This document shows positions 7,560-39,433 of a DNA stretch of 64,000 nt, piece after piece (the first letter of the stretch is position 1; each line of letters opens with the position of its first letter). The position numbers and the translations under genes are program-made. This DNA comes from Cynocephalus volans (taxonomy: Eukaryota; Chordata; Mammalia; Dermoptera; Cynocephalidae): NCBI RefSeq assembly GCF_027409185.1, contig NC_084478.1, forward strand, positions 81,265,624-81,329,623, given 5' to 3'. The notes under the pieces are model-generated. The model was given only the letters and a program-made list of their open reading frames with translations. It did not search any database and was not told the origin of the DNA.

Positions 7560-8088
7560 TAAAAAATGGCTTTATCATTTATCTATCACCACAACCAATT
7601 TTAGAACATTTTTGTTACCCCAGAAAGAAACCCTGTACTCATTAGCTGTCATTACTCTCCATTTCTCACACCCCTCCCCCCTCCCCCAGGCCCTGGCAAC
7701 CACTAATCTACATTCTGTTTCTATAGATGGACTTGTTCTGGATATTTCATAAATAGAATGTACAATTTATGGTCTTTTGTGACTGGCTTCTTTAACTTAG
7801 CTGTTTTTGAGGTTCATCCATGTTGTAGCATTTATCAGTACTTCACTTCTTTTTATTGTGAAACAATATTCCTTTGTATGAACATACCACATTTTGTTTA
7901 TTCATTCATCAGCTGATGCACATTTAGGTTGTTTTCACCTTTCAGATTAGTGAAAAATGCTGTAGTGAACACTGGCATACAAACTTTTGTGTGGACCTAT
8001 ATTTTCAGTTCTCTCAGATACACACATGCATGCGCACACATACAAACCCTTGGGGGTAGAAGTTCTGGGTCATATGGTAAGTCTGTAT

Positions 8089-8091
<3 letters not shown>
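7560..8091 (-). mobile_element. Old L1 (host of nested insertion), 3' part
   Basis: Antisense L1M-type 3' end: 'AGAAAGAAACCCTGTACTCA', 'CCTGGCAACCACTAATCTAC' and 'GGTTCATCCATGTTGTAGCA' in plus-strand order. It is broken at 8091 by the chimeric L1 insertion and resumes at 11074 in the same register (the 'TCATATGGTAAGTCTG' context continues as AACTTTGAGGACTGACAAAC). Confidence 0.85.
8077..8091. repeat. Target-site duplication, left copy
   Basis: GTAAGTCTGTATTTA is repeated exactly at 11074-11088. The two copies bracket a 2,982-bp insertion and rejoin the interrupted older L1, proving one retrotransposition event. Confidence 0.9.
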
Positions 8092-8119
<28 letters not shown>

Positions 8120-8308
8120 TTTTATTTTGTCGATATACAATGTGGTTGATTATTGTGGCCAATTACTAAAACCTCCCTCCCTCCTCCCGCTTCCCCCCCA
8201 ACAATGTCCTTTCTGTTTGCTTGTCGTATCAACTTCAAGGAATTGTAATTGTTATGTCTTCTCCTCTCCCGGTTTTTTTTGCGTGTGTTTGAATTTATTT
8301 ATTTATTT

Positions 8309-10430
8309 TTAGCTCCCACCAATAAGTGAGAACATGTGGAATTTCTCTTTCTGTGCCTGACTTGTTTCACTTAATATAATTCTCTCTAGGTACATCCATG
8401 TCTTTGCAAATGGCAGTATTTCATTCTTTTTTATAGCTGAGTAGTATTCCATCGTGTAAATATACAACATTTTCCGTATCCACTCATCTGATGATGGACA
8501 TTTGGGCTGGTTCCGAATCTTGGCTATTGTAAAGAGTGCTGCGATGACCACTGGGGAACAGGTATACCTTCGACTTGATGATTTCCATTCCTCTGGGTAT
8601 ATTCCCAACAGTGGGATAGCTGGGTCATATGGTAGATCTATCTGCAATTGTTTGAGGAACCTCCATACCATTTTCCATAGAGGGTGCACCACTTTGCAGT
8701 CCCACCAACAATGTATGAGAGTTCCTTTTTCTCCGCAACCTCGCCAGCATTTATCGTTCAGAGTCTTTTGGATTTTAGCCATCCTAACTGGGGTTAGATG
8801 GTATCTCAGTGTGGTTTTGATTTGCATTTCCCGAATGCTGAGTGATGTTGAGCATTTTTTCATATGTCTGTTGGCCATTTGTATATCTTCCTTAGAGAAA
8901 TGCCTACTTAGCTCTTTTGCCCATTTTGTAATTGGGTTGCTTGTTTTCTTCTTGTAAAGTTGTTTGAGTTCCTTATATATTCTGGATATTAATCCTTTGT
9001 CAGATGTATATTTTGCAAATATTTTCTCCCACTCTGTTGGTTGTCTTTTAACTCTGTTAATTGTTTCTTTTGCTGTGCAGAAGCTCTTTAGTTTGATATA
9101 ATCCCATTTGTTTATTTTTCCTTTGGTTGCCCATGCTTTTGGGGTCATATTCATGAAGTCTGTGTCCAGTCCTATTTCCTGAAGTGTTTGTCCTATGTTT
9201 TCTATAAGAAGTTTTATTGTTTCAGGGTGTATATTTAATTCTTTAATCCATTTTGAGTTGACTTTAGTGTATGGTGAAAGGTATGGGTCTAGTTTCATTC
9301 TCTTGCATATTGATATCCAGTTCTCCCAGCACCATTTGCTAAAGAGGCAGTCTCTTCCCCAGTGTATAGGCTTGGTGCCTTTGTCAAAGATTAGGTGTGT
9401 GGGTTGATTTCTGGATTCTCTATTCTATTCCATTGATCAGTGTGTCTGTTTTTATGCCAGTACCATACTGTTTTGGTTATTATAGCTTTGTAGTATAGTT
9501 TAAAGTCAGGTAGTGTTATGCCTCCAGCTTTATTGTTTTTGCTCAGCGTTGCTTTGGCTTTTGCTATGTGTGGTCTTTTGCTATTCCATATAAATGTCTG
9601 GATAGTTCTTTCCATTTCTGAGAAAAATGTCATTGGAATTTTGATGGGGATTGCATTGAATTTGTATATCACTTTGGGTAGTATGGACATTTTCACTATG
9701 TTGATTCTTCCAATCCAAGAGCATGGGATATCTTTCCATCTTCTTGTATCCTCTCTAATTTCTCTCAGCAGTGGTTTGTAGTTCTCATTATAGAGATTTT
9801 TCACATCCTTGGTTAACTTAATTCCTACGTATTTTATTTTTTTGGTGGCTATTGTAAATGGGCAAGCTTTCTTGATTTCTCTTTCTGCATGTTCACTATT
9901 GGAGAATAGAAAAGCTACTGATTTTTTTTGTGTTGATTTTGTATCCTGCTACATTGCTGAAATCATTTATCAACTCCAAGAGTTTTTTTGTAGAAGCTTC
10001 AGGCTGTTCGATATATAGGACCTTGTCATCTGCAAACAGAGACAGTTTGACTTCATTTTTTCCAATCTGGATGCCCTTTATTTCCTTCTCTTCTCTGATT
10101 GCTCTGGCTAGTACTTCCAACACTATGTTGAATAGGAGTGGTAAGAGTGTGCATCCTTGTCTACTTCCTGTTCTTAAAGGAAAAGCTTTCAGCTTTTCCC
10201 CATTCAGGATGATATTGGCAGTGGGTTTATCATATATGGCTTTAATTATGTTGAGATACTTTCCATCTATACCTAACTTTTAGAGGGTCTTTGTCATGAA
10301 TGAATGTTGAATTTTATCAAATGCTTTATCAGCCTCTATAGAGATGATGATATGGTCCTTGTGTTTGATTTTATTAATATGGTGTATCACGTTTATTGAT
10401 TTGCATATGTTGAACCATCCCTGCTGGATG
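8309..10430 (-). pseudogene. L1 ORF2 remnant (C-terminal two-fifths), degenerate
   Basis: Conceptual translation gives the end of the L1 reverse-transcriptase domain ([20 protein letters not shown], with the FADD catalytic motif, near 10040), then the downstream region through '[20 protein letters not shown]' to the cysteine-containing C-terminus ('[20 protein letters not shown]'). The longest intact piece is 329 codons (8309-9298); stops and frameshifts break the rest. The endonuclease domain and the first half of the RT domain are absent, replaced by the VNTR. Not expected to make protein. Confidence 0.9.
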
Positions 10431-10910
10431 TCTCCCTGCTCCATGCATGCTGGGCCAGGCTTGGGATGGAGCTGGGTTCCAGCAGTGAAGTGTACCTGCT
10501 GCTGGATCGCGCGGCAGCGGCCCCCCCACAGGGTGTATGGTCTCTACAGAGCTTCCACCTCCCCTGCTGGACGTCTCTCTGCTCTGTACGCACTGGGCCG
10601 GGCTGCTGGATTGCATGGCGGCAGTGTGGTCTCTGCGGAGCTTCTGCCTCCCCTGCTAGATGTCTCCCCGCTCTGCATGCACTGGGCTGGGCTGCTGGAT
10701 CCTGTGGCGGCAGTGTGGACGCCACAGAGCTCCTGCCTCCCCTGCCGGACGTCACCCCACTCTGTGCGCACTGGGTCAGGCTGGGAATGGAGCCAGGTGG
10801 CGGCGGTGAAGCCTATCTGCAGGATCGTGTGATGGTGGCCCCGCAGGGCATGTGGTCTCTGCAGAGCTTCTGCCTCCCCCGCTGGACATCTCCCCGTTCC
10901 GTATGCACTT
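10425..10910 (-). repeat. GC-rich VNTR-like tandem repeat
   Basis: Five copies of a unit carrying CTCCCCTGCTGGACGTCTC-like sequence followed by a 'GCACTGGGC' motif start near 10420, 10548, 10647, 10736 and 10871. Spacings are about 128, 99, 89 and 135 bp, so long and short unit types alternate. Long units have an extra block with 'GGAATGGAGCCAG' and 'GTGGCCCCGCAGGGCATG'. Composition is strikingly GC-rich and CpG-containing against AT-rich L1 on either side. Open frames on both strands (up to about 160 codons) are by-products of low stop-codon density. Confidence 0.85.
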
Positions 10911-11073
10911 GATGTTATGTTTTTATAGTTGTAAATCAGTTGATTTGTGGAAGATAGTGATGCCAAGGACCATCTATTCTGCCATAGTTTCTGAGTCTGG
11001 GAAGTCCAAAGTCCATCTGGTGGTGGCAAGAGTGACCCAGGGTTCTCATATTGTAAGATGGTGGAAGCAGACC
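10911..11073 (-). mobile_element. 5' module of the chimeric element
   Basis: On the minus strand it begins at the target-site duplication and runs through ATGAGAACCCTGGGTCACT, 'CCACCACCAG' and 'GGACTTTGGACTTCCCAG'. These three blocks occur in the same order in the independent mini retro-insert at 33214-33382. The 'GGACTTCCCAG...' part resembles the 3' end of MaLR-type LTRs, suggesting the element's 5' end was captured from an LTR-containing transcript. Confidence 0.65.
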
Positions 11074-12050
11074 GTAAGTCTGTATTTAAACTTTGAGGAC
11101 TGACAAACTGTTTTCCAAAGTGGCTGTGTTATTTTAGATTCCCACCCACATTATATGATGGTTCCAATTTCTCCACATCCTCTTGAATACTTGCTAGTTG
11201 TCTATCTTTTTAATTATAACTATCGTAGTGGGTGTGAAATGGTATCTCTTGTGGATTTGATTTGTATTTCCCTAATAATTATGATGCTGAAAATTTTTTT
11301 ATGTCCTTATTGGCCACTTGTATATCTTCTTTTGAGAAATATCTATACATACACTTTGCACATTTTTTAATTGGGTTATCGCTTTTTTTCTTCTTAAGTT
11401 GTAAGAGTTATATATATATATATTCATATACAAGATCCTTATCAGATATATGATCTGCAAATATTTTCTCCCATTCTATGGGTTGTCTTTCTACTTATTT
11501 GAAGTTTTCATTTGCAGCACAAAGGTTTTTAATTTTGATTAAATCCAATTTGTTTTTTCTTTTGTTACTTGTGCTTTTGGTGTTATATCTAAGAAATCAC
11601 TGCCTAACCCAAGGTCATGAAGATTTTCTCCCAAGTTATCTTCAAAGAGTTTTATAGTTTTAACTCTTGCATTTATGTCTCTGATCTATTTTGAGTTAAT
11701 ATTAAATATGGTGTGAAGTATGGTCCAACTTCATTCTTTTGCATATGGTTATCCAGTTATTGTAGCATCATTTGTTGAAGAGACTACTCTTTTACCATTG
11801 AGTTTTCTTGGTACCCTTCTTGAAAATCAACGGAGCTTGGAAGTATGAGCTTATTTTTCAACTCTCAATTCTATCCCATTGATCTATGTCTATCTTTATA
11901 ACAGTAACAGACTGTTGATTACTACAGCTTTGTTGTAAGTTTTAAAATTGGGAAGTATGAATCCTCCAACTTTGTTCTTTTTCAGGATATTTTCAGCTAT
12001 TCTGGGTCCCTTATATTTTCATATGAATTTTAGAATCATGTCAATTTCTG
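11074..12050 (-). mobile_element. Old L1 (host), continuation in antisense
   Basis: Resumes the 7560-8091 element: antisense ORF2 C-terminus with 'TTCTCCACATCCTCTTGAAT', 'ATTTTCTCCCATTCTATGGG' and 'TTTGCATATGGTTATCCAG'. It ends at about 12050 (TGTCAATTTCTGCAAGAGAG), where the sequence flips to sense orientation. The right copy of the younger element's target-site duplication is its first 15 bases. Confidence 0.85.
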
Positions 12051-33200: not shown

Positions 33201-33213
33201 ACAATCACAATAA
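33201..33213. repeat. Target-site duplication of mini retro-insert, left copy
   Basis: ACAATCACAATAA; the right copy ACAATTACAATAA is at 33383-33395 with one mismatch. Confidence 0.7.
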
Positions 33214-33382
33214 CTCTCTCTGCTCTGACACTTCTGCCACATGAGACCCCTGGGTCACTGTCACCACCACTAAGGCCTTTGCCCTAGCTGTGTCCCCTGG
33301 ACTTTGGACTTCCCAGTCTTCCGAAACTGTAAGCAATAAATTTCACTTTCTTACAAAAGAAAAACAAAACAAAACAAAAAAA
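33214..33382 (+). mobile_element. Mini retro-insert of a polyadenylated transcript
   Basis: A 169-bp insert with a retro-copied mRNA signature: 13-bp target-site duplications, an AATAAA at 33335-33340, and an A-rich tail starting about 14 bp after the signal. It contains ATGAGACCCCTGGGTCACT, 'CCACCACTA' and 'GGACTTTGGACTTCCCAG', the same blocks as the 5' module of the chimeric element at 10911-11073. The 'GAAACTGTAAGCAATAAATT' end resembles a MaLR LTR polyadenylation region, so the parental transcript probably ended in such an LTR. Confidence 0.65.
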
Positions 33383-33422
33383 ACAATTACAATAATTTGT
33401 TGAACTTTCAAAAATAGAGAAC

Positions 33423-33437: not shown

Positions 33438-33599
33438 GAAGTTGGGATTCAGGTTCCGGTCAAGATAGCACAGTAGTCGGTTCCTGGTGTTGCTCTTTAC
33501 CACAGAGTGACCAATTTGAGGAGCAGTGATGGAGGACCCGAGATCTGCACAAGAGCAGATGGGAGCCCAGTTCAGGTTGCTCCCCATTGTGCAGAGAAA

Positions 33600-33990
33600 C
33601 TTTAGAGCTTCTTGGCTCACACGCCCTGAGTCTGCTGGGTCTGAGAAGGCTGGTGGGGTGGGACTTCTGGCCCAGGCCAGCCCCTGCCACTGGGTGAGAC
33701 TTAAGAGGCTCGCAGGCCCCCATACCCTGAGTCAGCCATGCCGGGAGAAGACAGGTGGGGCTGGACCTCTGGCCCAGGCCAGTCTCCACTGCGGAGAGAG
33801 ACTTAACAGCCTGGAGGCTCCCATACCCTGAGCCAGCTGAGCCAGGGAAGGCAAGCAGAGTGGGACTTCCAGCCCAGCCAAGTCCCTGCTGCTGGTAGAG
33901 TCCTAAGAGGATTGGGGCTCCCACACCCCGAGCCAGCCATGCCAGAGAAGAAAGGCAGGGTGGGACTTCCAGCCCGGTCTAGTTCCTCCT
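33600..33990 (+). repeat. L1 5'UTR tandem monomers (~102 bp, about 4 copies)
   Basis: A GC-rich unit with 'CCATACCCTGAGCCAGC', 'GTGGGACTTCCAGCCC' and 'AGACTTAAGAGGCT'-like blocks repeats with starts near 33619, 33719, 33821 and 33921. L1 5'UTRs built from monomers are known in mouse; human L1 lacks them. The minus-strand frames here (up to 154 codons) are a consequence of the repeat. Confidence 0.8.
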
Positions 33991-34068
33991 GCCCAGAAGT
34001 GGCAGTCCCTTCAAGATCCAAGCCCAACACCAGGGTGAAATGAGTTGACTGAGATACCCCCAAGCACA

Positions 34069-35007
34069 ATGACAAAACACCAAAGGAAAGATACCAGAAA
34101 TATGAAAAATCAAGAAAGTATATCACCACCAAAGGAAAATAATAATTCTCAAGCACTATTGAAAGGTGTTGATCCTATAGAACAGGAAGTCTCTGAAATG
34201 ACAGACAAGGAATTTAGAGTAACTATTCTAAGGAAACTAAATGAGATACAAGAAAACTCAGTGAAACAACACAATGAAATGAGAAAAAAATACAGGATTT
34301 GAAAGAAGAAATGTACAAAGAAATCAATGCCTTGAAAAAGAATGTAGCTGAGGTTGTGGAGCTGAAGGATTCATTCAATGAAATAAAAAACACAACAGAG
34401 AGTTTAACCAGCAGACTTGAACAAGCAGAAGAGAGAATTTCTGACCTTGAAGACAGGCTGTTTGAATTATCACAGGCAGTCCAGAAAAAAGAAAAAAGAA
34501 TTTAAAAAATTGAAGAAAATCTAAGAGAGACAACTGATAAACTTAAGTGCTCAAATATCTGAATCATGGGTATTCCAGAAGGGGAGGAAAAAGGAAATGG
34601 CATTGAAAACATATTCAGTGAAATAATAGCAGAAAACTTCCCAGGTATAGGGAAAGTCACACATCTCCAGATTCAGAAAGCCCAAAGATCACCAAACACA
34701 TTCAACCCAAAAAGATCCTCTCCAAGACGTGATAATCAAACTGACAAAACTCAAAGACAAAGAGAGAATCTTAAAAGCTGCAAGAGAGAAGCGGCAAATC
34801 ACCTATATGGGAGCCCTAATCAGAATAACATCAGACTTTTCATCAGAAACCCTAAAAGCCAGAAAAGAATGGGGTGATATATTCAAAACACTAAAGGACA
34901 AAAATTGCCAGCCAAGAATACTTTACTCAGCAAGGCTATCCTTCCAAAATGGACAAATAGTATATTTCCCAGACAAACAAAAACTGTGGGAGTTCACTAC
35001 CACATGA
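34069..35007 (+). pseudogene. L1 ORF1 (RNA-binding protein), frameshifted
   Basis: ORF1p is the L1 RNP chaperone: an N-terminal coiled coil, an RRM and a C-terminal domain. The start is the ATG at 34069. The coiled-coil region is visible as 'LKKNVAEVVELKDSFNEIKN' and 'TSRLEQAEERISDLEDRLFE'. Downstream 'MGIPEGEEKGNGIENIFSEI' is the RRM start, and the C-terminal part ends near 35007. Frame changes occur near 34300, 34505 and 34800, so no single protein is encoded. Length matches a complete ORF1 of just over 300 codons. Confidence 0.9.
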
Positions 35008-36137
35008 CCAGCCCTACAAGAAATTCTCAAGGAAGTACTCGGTTTGATACCACAAAAACAACCATCACTGCCATGAATATGCAAGAAAGAACAATACCTA
35101 TCAGCAAAACAAAAATGCTAACAAAAGAGAAAGAAAGAGTTTATCTATCACCCCAAGAAACCAATAAATACAGAAGACAAACAGAAAATTAGAAAGAAAG
35201 GAATGAAAGGTACTTAAGACATCTAAAAATCAGTAAAATGCTAGGAGTAAATCAGCACCTTTCAATAGTAACTGTACATGTAAAGGGATTAAATTCCACA
35301 TTCAAAAGACACAGACTGACTGGATTAAAAAGATGGACCCAACAATATGCTGTCTTCAAGAGACTCACTTGACCTATAAAGATACATATAAACTAAGAGT
35401 GAAAGTATAGAAAAAGACATATCATGAAAATAGAAATGAAAAACGAGCTGGAGTAGCTATTCTTATATCAGATAAAATAGACTTTAAAGCAAAAACCATA
35501 AAAAGAGGTAAAGAAGGCCACTATATAATGATAAAAGGATCTATCCATCAAAAAGACGTAACAATCATAAATATATATGCACCGAATGTTGGAGCAGCCA
35601 GATTTACAAAGCAAACACTATTAGATCTAAAGAAAGAGACAGACACTAACACCATAATAGCGGGGGACCTAAACACCCCATTCTCATCATTGGACAGATC
35701 ATCTAGCAAAAAATCAACAGAGAAACACAAGATCTAAACAATACTTTAGATCAATTGGACTTGGTAGATATCTACAGAACATTCCATCCAACAGCCTCAG
35801 AATATTCATTCTTCTCATCAGCACATGGAACATTCTCCAGGATAGATGACATGTTAGGTCACAAAGCAAGTCTAAACAAATTCAAAAAAATTGGAATTAT
35901 TCCATGTATTTCTTCTGACCACAATGGATTAAAATTAGTAATCATTAATAAACAAAACTCTAAAAACTATACAAACACATGGAAATTAAACAATATTCTA
36001 CTCAATGACATGTGGTTCCAAGAAGAAATTAAACAGGAAATCCAAAAACTTCTTGAAACTAATGAAAATAATGACACATCATACCAAAACCTGTGGGATA
36101 CTGCAAAAGCAGTTTTCAGGGGGAAATTTATTGCATG

Positions 36138-36151
36138 AAATGCTTACTTCA
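36138..36151. repeat. SINE target-site duplication, left copy
   Basis: AAATGCTTACTTCA; exact right copy at 36293-36306. Confidence 0.9.
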
Positions 36152-36292
36152 GGGCCGAGCCCGTGGCACACTCAGGAGAGTGTGGCGCTGGCAGCGCGGC
36201 AACGCTCCCGCCGCAGGTTCGGATCCTACATAGGAATGGCCGGTGCACTCACTGGCTGAGTGCCGGTCACGAAAAAGACAAAAAAAAAAAAA
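36152..36292 (+). mobile_element. tRNA-derived SINE (probably colugo CYN type)
   Basis: About 127 bp plus A tail. The 5' part folds like a tRNA-Ile relative: GGGCCGAGCCCGTGGCACAC head, and a B-box-like GGTTCGGATCC at 36217-36227. The 3' part ends 'GTGCCGGTCACGAAAAAGAC' and an A-run. It is flanked by exact 14-bp duplications and interrupts L1 ORF2. From memory this resembles the tRNA-Ile SINEs of Dermoptera; other tRNA-derived families cannot be excluded without a search. Confidence 0.8.
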
Positions 36293-39210
36293 AAATGCTT
36301 ACTTCAGAAGAATCAAAAGATGGCAAATAAATAACCTAACAGTTCACCTTAAAGATCTAGAAAAACAAGAACAATCCAAACCTAAAGTTAGTAGATGGAA
36401 AGAAATAATTAAGATCAGAGCAGAACTAAATAAGATAGAAACCCGAAAAACAATACAAAAGATCAATGAAACAAAAAGTTGGGTTTTTGAAAAGATAAAT
36501 AAAATCAACAAACCTTTAGCAAGATTAACTAAGAAGAGAGAAGACCCAAATAACAAAAATTAGAAATGAAAAAGGTGATATTACAACTGACACCTCAGAA
36601 ATACAAGGAATCATCAGAGACTACTATAAACAACTATATGCCAACAAATTTGAAAATATGGAGGAAATGGATAAATTTCTGGATGCATACAAACTACCAA
36701 AACTGAGCCAAGAAGATATAGAAATTCTGAACAGACCAATAACAATATAAGAGATTGAAGCTGTTATCAGAAGGCTCCCAACAAAAAAAGCCTAGGACTG
36801 GATGGGTTCACTGCAGAGTTCAACCAAACCTTCAAAGAGGAACTGATACCAATTCTCTACAAACTGTTCCAAAAGACTGAAACAGAGGCTGTTCTCCCAA
36901 ACTCATTGATGAGGGAAACATCACCCTGATACCAAAACCAGACAAAGATGCATCAAAAATAGAAAACTACAGGCCAATATCCTTGATGAATATAGATGAT
37001 ATAATCCTCAATAAAATACTAGCTAACAGAATACAGCAACACATACCAAAAATTATACACCACGATCAAGTGGGATTCATCCCAGGGATGCAAAGTTGGT
37101 TCAACATACGCAAACCAATAAATGTGATACACCACATCAATAAAAGCAAAGACAAAAACCACATGATTATCTCTATTGATGCTGAAAAAGCATTTGACAA
37201 AACTCAACATCCTTTCATTATAAAAACTCTCTATAAGTTAGGCATAGATGGAAAGTGTCTCAACATAATTAAAGCCATATACGCTAAGCCCACTGCCAAT
37301 ATCATCCTGAATGGGGAAAAGCTGAAAGCTTTTCCCTTAAAAACACGAACTAGACAAGGATGCCAACTCTCACCACTCCTATTCAACATAGTGTTGGAAG
37401 TACTAGCCAGAGCAATCAGAGAAGAGAAGGAAATAAAGGGCATCCAGATTGGAAAGGATGAAGTCAAGCTGTCCCTTTTTGTGGATGATATGATCCTATA
37501 TATTGAACAGCCTAAAGACTCTATAAAAAAACTCCTAGACTTGATAAATGATTTCAGCAAAGTTGCAGGATACAAACTCAACACACAAAAATGAGTAGCA
37601 TTTCTACACTCCAACAGTGAATACGCAGAAAAAGAAATCAAGAAAGCTAGCCCATTTACAACAGCCACCAAAAAAATAAAATACTTAGGAATAAAGCTGA
37701 ACAAGGATGTGAAAAAACTCTATGAAGAGAACTACCAACCACTGTTGAGAGAAATTAAAGAAGACACAAGAAGATGGAAAGATATCCCTTGCTCTTGGAT
37801 TGGAAGAATTCACATTGTGAAAATGTCCATCTTACCCAAAGTGATCTACAGATTCAATGCAATCCCCATCAAAATTCCAATGACATTTTTCTCTGAGATG
37901 GAAAAAGCTATCCAGACATTTAAATGGAACAACAAAAGACCACGCATAGCCAAAGCAATCCTGAGGGAAAAAAAAAAAAAAAGCTGGAGGCATAACACTA
38001 CCTGACTTTAAACTATACTACAAAGCTATGATAAACCAAACAGCATGGTACTGGCATAAAAACAGACACATATATCAATGGACTAGAATAGAGAACCCCA
38101 AAATCAATCTATACGCCTACAGCCATCTGATATTTGACAAAGGCAGCAAATCTACATACTGGGGAAGAGACCGCCTTTTCAACAAGTGTTGCTGGGAGAA
38201 TTGGATACTCATATGTAGAAGATTGAAACTAGCCCTGTACCTTTCACCATATACCAAAATCAACTCAAAATGGATTAAAGAATTAAATATACACCCTGAA
38301 ACAATAAAACTCCTTAAAGAAAACATAGGGGAACACTCCAAGAAGTAGGAATGGGTACAGACTTTATGAATAGGACCCCAAAAGCACAGGCAACTATAGG
38401 AAAAATAAACAAATGGGATTATATCAAACTAAAAATCTTCTGCATAGCAAAAGAAACAATCAATAGAGTAAAAAGACAACCAACAGAGTGGGAGAAAATA
38501 TTCACAAAATATACATCTGACAAAGGATTAATATCCAGAATTTACAAGGAACTCAAACAACTTTACAGCAAAAAACCAAATACTCCAATTAAAAAATGGG
38601 CAAAGGAGCTGAATAGGCATTTCTCAAAGGAAGATATACGAGTGGCCAAAGACACATGAAAAAATGCTCAACCTCACTCAGCATCTGGGAAATGCAAATC
38701 AAGACCACATTGAGATACCATCTCACTCCAGTCAAGATGGCTAATATCCAAAAGAGTGAGAATGGTAAGTGCTGGAGAGGATGTGGAGAGAAAGGAACTC
38801 TCATGCACTGCTGGTGGGACTGCAAATTGGTGCAGCCTTTATGGAAAATGGTATGGAGGCTCCTCAAACAATTACAGATAGATCTACCATATGACCCAGC
38901 TATTCCACTGTTGGGAATATACCCAGAGGAATGGAAATCATCATGCCGAAGGGATACCTGTACTTCAATGTTTACAGCAGCACTATTTACAGTAGCCAAG
39001 AGTTGGAAACAGCCCAAATGTCCATCATCTGATGAATGGATAAGGAAACTGTGGTATATGTACACAATGGAATACGACTCTGCTATAAAAAAGAACAAAA
39101 TACTACCATTCGCAACAACATGGATGGACTTAGAGAAAATTATACTAAGTGAAACAAGTCAGACACAGAAAGAGAAATATCACATGTTCTCACTTATTTG
39201 TGGGAACTAA

Positions 39211-39390
39211 AAATAAATAAATAAATAAACACACAAACAAATCAAGGGTAGTGGGGGAAGAAGACAGAATAACCGCAAAAATTCCTTGAACTATTTAAGT
39301 AAAGTGAACAGATATGATGTGGGGGAGGAGGGGAAGGCGTGGAGAGGAATGGGTAAATGGGCGTGAAGATCAACTACAATGTATTTTGAG

Positions 39391-39425
<35 letters not shown>
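39211..39425 (+). mobile_element. 3'UTR and poly(A) tail of the full-length L1
   Basis: Contains an (AAAT)n run at 39210-39228, a purine-rich tract ('GGGGGAGGAGGGGAAGG', near 39320) typical of L1 3'UTRs, and about 31 A from 39395. Confidence 0.85.

Positions 39426-39433
<8 letters not shown>

Follow-up and report, generated by a model that had tools for sequence, protein, structure and literature searches.

The SVA and LAVA retrotransposons share a 5′ CT-hexamer/Alu-like region and a central variable number tandem repeat (VNTR) (PMC4432496). The original prediction for a minus-strand unit at 8077-11088 of the 64,000-bp stretch of colugo (Cynocephalus volans) DNA analysed here (the window, C30:81265624-81329623) was that of an independent family of this kind, in which a long terminal repeat (LTR)-like 5′ module, a VNTR and the 3′ part of a LINE-1 (L1) element move as one composite. 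Three further systems invite comparison. Law and Burns 2026 (PMC13174262) describe 17 human-reference L1 insertions with exons of genes or long non-coding RNAs (lncRNAs) fused to the 5′ end, of which six end exactly at splice donors and some are joined to the first L1 bases without an L1 splice site. SpIREs derive from splices within the L1 5′ untranslated region (UTR) or into open reading frame 1 (ORF1) and are recurrent, accounting for 131 of 6,609 L1PA1-L1PA6 elements (Larson et al. 2018, PMC5860796). The monomer promoters of mouse L1 are tandem repeats in the 5′UTR ahead of ORF1 (PMC9022269). 

The window element is very probably a single L1 copy and no member of a composite family; at the 5′ end it behaves like the spliced-exon chimeras, and the remainder is a broken L1. 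As in the chimeras of Law and Burns, an upstream exon ends at a donor and is fused in the sense orientation to the L1 5′ end within one target duplication. Unlike those chimeras, which carry exons of genes or lncRNAs, the exon here comes from an LTR whose exon was also seen ahead of L1 5′ ends in two samples (12 of 32 and 5 of 23), and the element lacks its middle. With SpIREs, which are regarded as dead on arrival (PMC5860796), the element shares an internal L1 deletion that starts in the 5′UTR, but its joint lacks GT-AG, enters ORF2 and was found once. The tandem 5′UTR repeats ahead of ORF1 resemble the mouse monomers (PMC9022269) by description, with a promoter role here being putative. SVA and LAVA likewise have GC-rich tandem repeats in mid-unit and an L1-type target duplication and tail (PMC4432496), whereas in the window element the 5′ end is LTR exon plus L1 leader, the repeats are L1's own and there is no multicopy junction. 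The 5′ part aligns with LTR exon and leader, and no CT-hexameric/Alu-like region was met there, with no dedicated Alu/7SL search made.

Structure of the element and origin of its GC-rich array

The anatomy originally described was confirmed. An exact 15-nt repeat, GTAAGTCTGTATTTA, at 8077-8091 and 11074-11088 encloses 2,982 bp (8092-11073) on the minus strand; 11 nt of it are unambiguous target-site duplication, the remaining 4 nt being equally assignable to the (TAAA)n tail, a tract that spans 8086-8127. Duplication and tail fit the L1 machinery, whether acting in cis or in trans. The insertion target was an older L1, as both flanks match colinear L1 parts and re-joining them lengthens the L1 match across the joint by about 12 bases. 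Within the element, 5′UTR, ORF2, 3′UTR and tail are colinear with L1. ORF1 is missing, as is ORF2 as far as about residue 572; ORF2 resumes at residue 573 of 1275 (human ORF2p numbering), and the Pfam RVT_1 match begins at profile position 50. The parts, all on the minus strand and in the direction of the element, are as follows.

11074-11088: target-site duplication, copy 5′ of the element, exact 15-nt repeat
10986-11073: LTR-derived exon, 88 nt, from about the putative transcript start to the splice donor (AAACT/GTAAGC in unspliced copies, AAACT/ATGGC in the element)
10985-10986: probable splice junction of LTR exon and L1 leader, with AG immediately upstream in 18 of 20 leader starts and the same joint at seven other inspected loci
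10905-10985: L1 5′UTR leader, 80-95% identical to genomic leader matches; also matched in L034
10425-10904: GC-rich tandem array assigned to the L1 5′UTR, four units and one partial
10419-10424: deletion joint GCAGGG (overlap of array GCAGGG and ORF2 GCAAGG), without GT-AG and at a single genomic place
8309-10418: L1 ORF2, 3′ part beginning near residue 573 and interrupted by stops and frameshifts, placed by ORF2 comparison and Pfam RVT_1
8128-8308: L1 3′UTR with a purine-rich tract, in colinear alignment with the window's other L1 as far as its last bases
8092-8127: (TAAA)n tail, read from the sequence
8077-8091: target-site duplication, copy 3′ of the element, exact 15-nt repeat

The repeat cores of the array start at 10893, 10756, 10667, 10579 and 10435, giving four complete units and one truncated by the switch into ORF2, a switch that had been recognized before together with the repeats and the tail; the spacings are 137, 89, 88 and 144 bp, in place of the about five units of 89-135 bp given earlier. 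The source genome (2.81 Gb, 130 contigs) was searched with an 81-bp query around the array/ORF2 joint, for which the best 40 of 665 first-look candidates were scored. Among the 42 matches listed, 34 covered the array side alone and seven the ORF2 side alone, and only the window spanned the joint. The 34 array-side matches fall into 32 separate loci (denoted by L numbers below), representing 31 insertions as L039 and L040 are duplicates; all were examined, 20 of them over 9.9 kb and 12 over 1.5-2.2 kb (three of these extended), and the counts refer to this side of the joint, with the seven ORF2-side places left out of inspection. These loci were picked for their similarity to the last array unit of the element and are no random sample of L1.

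At 29 of the 32 loci the array leads to the start of ORF1 (reference coordinate 629-647), and the supposed VNTR is therefore the L1 5′UTR array, with no standing as an independent domain. It follows that array and ORF2 together are one L1 without its middle. At the remaining loci the array runs into the interior of ORF1 at about 1000 (L011) or directly into ORF2 at about 3516 (L024) and about 4471 (L040), compared with about 3657 in the window; in L009 an insert interrupts the array ahead of ORF1. A 27-mer across the array/ORF2 joint, searched with up to three mismatches, occurs at one place in the genome, the window itself. Under the same rule the native ORF2 27-mer over the same site gave 28,785 matches and a 28-mer taken from the 5′ end of L1 gave 4,071, so the method finds copies where they exist.

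An SVA/LAVA-like family built around a VNTR of its own and ending in L1 sequence at the 3′ side, which the order of the parts, the target duplication and the tail do resemble, is thus highly improbable: its array is the L1 5′UTR at 29 of 32 loci, LTR exon and L1 leader explain its 5′ part, and the junction by which its copies would be recognized was found, at up to three mismatches, at one locus only, the very outcome that the original prediction had named as refuting it. What stands of the composite originally proposed is an LTR-like 5′ module joined to L1 in one unit; its separate VNTR does not. Exact patterns of the joint, the repeat unit and the LTR exon each gave zero matches in a viral contig collection.

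Some observations weigh against the single-L1 interpretation. Copies of the joint that have diverged by more than 3 in 27 positions could be missed, although the 81-bp search, within the candidates scored, likewise showed none. The array of the window's near-complete L1 does not align significantly with that of the element (its score of 44 compares with a mean of 40.9 for shuffles, 157 of 500 of which scored as high, and hence no evidence of homology), so that genomic loci alone settled the identity of the array. 

The leader matches the window's own L1 at 33 of 53 positions, with 15 transitions and five transversions; this homology is weak against the whole 5′UTR of that L1 (34 of 500 shuffles as high), as is that of the whole 5′ module (72 of 500), and strong only when the comparison is confined to the initial 110 bp (depending on the scoring scheme, 0 to 4 of 3000 shuffles as high), a result made superfluous by the genomic loci.

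The LTR exon and its junction with the L1 leader

A 169-bp query of exon and leader, with the best 40 of 2,754 candidates scored, listed 44 matches, among which, besides the window, 12 places cross the exon/leader border and 28 contain the exon alone. The joint of the window element is present at seven of the 12 border-crossing places (L034, L045, L046, L047, L048, L052 and L055), where AAACT, AAGCT or GTAACT is followed by ATGG or CTGG. In L050, L051, L053 and L054 the exon is joined to the first bases of L1, and L049 carries extra bases. The pattern of the exon/leader joint itself occurs at nine places including the window; seven, again including the window, have at most two mismatches, and the two places with three mismatches were set aside from inspection and counts. 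The joint common to the seven loci may reflect common descent or repeated splicing.

The donor side of the proposed splice is represented by unspliced copies of the LTR. Inspection and counts of the exon-only places covered four of the 28 (L056, L057, L058 and L059), with the other 24 left outside. L056 and L057 are unspliced LTR copies in which AAACT is followed by GTAAGC, then AATAAA (L056) or AGTAAA (L057) and an LTR-type end; in L058 and L059 the exon end has no GTAAG after it. Two further copies carry GTAAG, at 33300 in the window and in L010, bringing the unspliced copies to four. Both L056 and L057 have a TTTAAAAG box some 30 nt ahead of the point matching the start of the element, and the element's first bases therefore fit the start of an LTR transcript, which would place the beginning of transcription in the LTR. 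The LTR that supplied the exon may resemble MaLR-type LTRs.

On the acceptor side, AG directly precedes the joint in 18 of the 20 unspliced leader starts compared (the spliced L034 excluded), and exact GGTCAAG/ATGG is found in 12 of the 20; the leader motif used contained the AG itself, with five substitutions allowed, which biases the AG share upward. Locus L034 matches the element from base 32 to breakpoint base 656 at 526 of 673 aligned columns (78%), spanning both the exon/leader joint and the array, and continues past the element's breakpoint with more array and then ORF1; its first exon is unlike the element's first 31 bases. The features of a spliced-exon chimera are thus found here in a source donor, AAACT/GTAAG, in the four unspliced copies, an AG before the L1 side, and exon and L1 inside one duplication. 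Comparison on both sides of the joint supports a splice as its probable origin.

Insertion and loss of the L1 middle

In the proposed origin of the element, transcription would begin in an LTR upstream of the source L1, and splicing would connect the LTR exon, at its GTAAG donor, with the AG of the L1 leader (GGTCAAG/ATGG). As follows from the duplication and the tail, L1 proteins then copied this LTR-exon/L1 RNA into the older L1 by target-primed reverse transcription, leaving the 15-bp duplication. About 3 kb, comprising the 3′ end of the 5′UTR array, ORF1, the endonuclease and the first part of the reverse transcriptase (RT), is missing; it was lost at the imperfect GCARGG overlap, which would be the final step. 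Given the loss of ORF1 and the front of ORF2, the element is presumably a dead end. As a test for a long-lived non-autonomous lineage, codon positions were compared between the L1 part of the element and the window's other L1, with an excess at third positions; changes private to the element number 17, 15 and 26 at codon positions 1, 2 and 3 (327, 327 and 326 compared, 15 ambiguous), counts that are suggestive of recent coding constraint and too few to decide.

At the breakpoint, the sequence is CAGCAGGG/GAAGGGG in intact arrays and GGGATGCAAGGTTGG in intact ORF2. The two share an imperfect 6-nt overlap, GCA[G/A]GG (GCAGGG/GCAAGG); for the 81-bp query, array-side matches reach query position 47 or 48 at most and ORF2-side matches begin at 42. 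The joint might in principle be a splice of an L1 transcript whose spliced RNA was then inserted, as in the SpIREs known in human (PMC5860796). The 5′ joint of the same element does look spliced and a GC-AG splice is possible at another locus, L013, but the intact arrays offer no GT donor at this point, the ORF2 side has no AG in register with one, and a splice product could recur whereas the window joint was found once genome-wide at up to three mismatches. A SpIRE-type origin of the joint is accordingly improbable.

Internal deletions with other breakpoints occur in L011, L013, L019, L024 and L040, with the gaps in L015, L022, L026 and L028 left out of the deletion analysis. One of these loci, L040 (C1:22.49 Mb), is a segmental duplicate of L039 (C1:22.60 Mb), the flanks being 97.2% identical over 849 and 98.8% over 1,796 columns. 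One insertion with one target duplication, AAGAAATAATGATGATAGA, is common to both, and L040 alone is without 3.87 kb from array to ORF2, with a 5-nt overlap, TCCAG, at the joint. Barring gene conversion from another L1, the pair is proof that in this genome an array can become fused to ORF2, within a single target duplication, once the insertion has taken place. It had been argued for the window element that the outer duplication demonstrates that all parts were copied in together; since L039 and L040 share their insertion and only L040 is deleted, that argument is unsafe. The pair does not establish a post-insertion deletion for the window element.

The deletion of the window element could instead have occurred at insertion, in one step, with the RT on the LTR-exon/L1 RNA jumping from ORF2 to the 5′UTR array at a short overlap. 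Such a jump is consistent with the imperfect 6-nt overlap at the joint and with the 2-3 nt overlaps or short filler at other internally deleted L1s (3 nt in L011; 2 nt in L013, the locus with the possible GC-AG splice; short filler in L019 and L024), and L024 lies in a different duplication of its own and starts like a standard L1. Evidence from L039/L040, the only pair by which such an event can be dated, goes the other way, to loss after insertion, and the 27-mer search of the genome at three mismatches found no sibling with the window joint that would place the joint before insertion. An RT jump is a real contender that falls a little short of an even chance. Deletion in the DNA after insertion, for which the chances are about even, is somewhat likelier; a deletion before or at insertion may nevertheless be the case and counts among the points against the order of events preferred here.

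LTR exons upstream of other L1 5′ ends

The end of the LTR exon lies in sense orientation upstream of the array at 12 of the 32 array loci, in 15 copies, none of which (0 of 15) continues with GTAAG; antisense matches in the same loci number two, one an unspliced LTR and one weak. Among 23 leader loci, the first of 46 exact matches listed, the exon end is found in five: four of the 19 newly fetched (within 700 bp), and L053 among the other four. L024, L027 and L040 belong to both sets, and neither set is random. As the search motif was built to end at AAACT, the agreement of the ends is by design and the test lies in the sequence after them, and one unselected copy, L072, continues with GTATT, which starts with GT though it is not GTAAG; both facts tell against the splicing interpretation. 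In a control, the 158,020 bp that lie past position 2000 in the 20 long loci contained 0 matches; as this sequence is mostly L1 body, the control is a weak one. The window itself contains two LTR-exon matches in 64,000 bp, one being the element's own.

Target duplications, searched for in 17 long loci without a null control, were accepted in nine (L010, L011, L014, L016, L019, L023, L024, L026 and L027), and none was accepted in the other eight (L009, L013, L015, L017, L018, L020, L022 and L025). Eight of the 20 long loci bear the exon; it lies inside an accepted duplication at L014, L019, L023 and L026, with no duplication accepted at L009, L015, L017 and L025.

Other arrangements at these 5′ ends were also observed. 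A further upstream exon (TCAATCAGGTCC..CACAAA) precedes L1 in L009, L027 and L066 with differing neighbours; L027 and L066 agree ahead of it and differ behind it, and L009 has the LTR exon ahead, a pattern as expected from alternative splicing. L016 and L020 have an LTR-like exon of a second type that runs directly into the L1 array, the join in L020 sitting where the window array reads CAGCAG/CCCGG. At least two copies of the LTR exon stand in a row before one L1 5′ end in L014, L017, L026, L034, L053 and L054, as if several had been spliced together.

The window holds a near-complete L1 at about 33441-39427 on the plus strand, which was not drawn on in the original prediction; its 5′UTR contains GC-rich tandem units of about 100 bp, and it sits in the 3′UTR of another L1 with an imperfect duplication. 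The interval 33213-33383 holds a copy of the LTR exon that includes GTAAGC, AATAAA and an A-rich tail; with ACAATCACAATAA and ACAATTACAATAA as its apparent flanks, it has the look of a polyadenylated LTR transcript that L1 inserted. A tRNA-derived, short interspersed element (SINE)-like insert at approximately 36153-36297, inside ORF2 of the near-complete L1, may resemble a colugo tRNA-derived SINE.

One LTR family may, with about equal chances for and against, have provided L1 in this mammal with exons and a widespread alternative promoter, its transcripts being spliced into the leader, the L1 start or the array and inserted repeatedly, with perhaps at least a fifth of L1 5′ ends carrying LTR exons. 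A literature search returned nothing on point for colugo L1, L1 promoter replacement or LTR-promoter/L1 chimeras; subscription papers lay largely outside it, so that absence is unproven.

These findings remove one candidate for an independent SVA-like family and indicate two sources of such candidates, namely tandem L1 5′UTR arrays that resemble VNTRs, and deletions within L1 that leave a composite inside one target duplication. The element illustrates the mixing of LTR and LINE-1 sequences instead of a new SVA-like family. It seems common here for L1 RNA to carry spliced-on LTR exons, and this would matter for L1 transcription when its own promoter is silenced; if the LTR family does serve as such a donor, L1 lineages could evade the silencing of their own promoter by means of borrowed LTR promoters.

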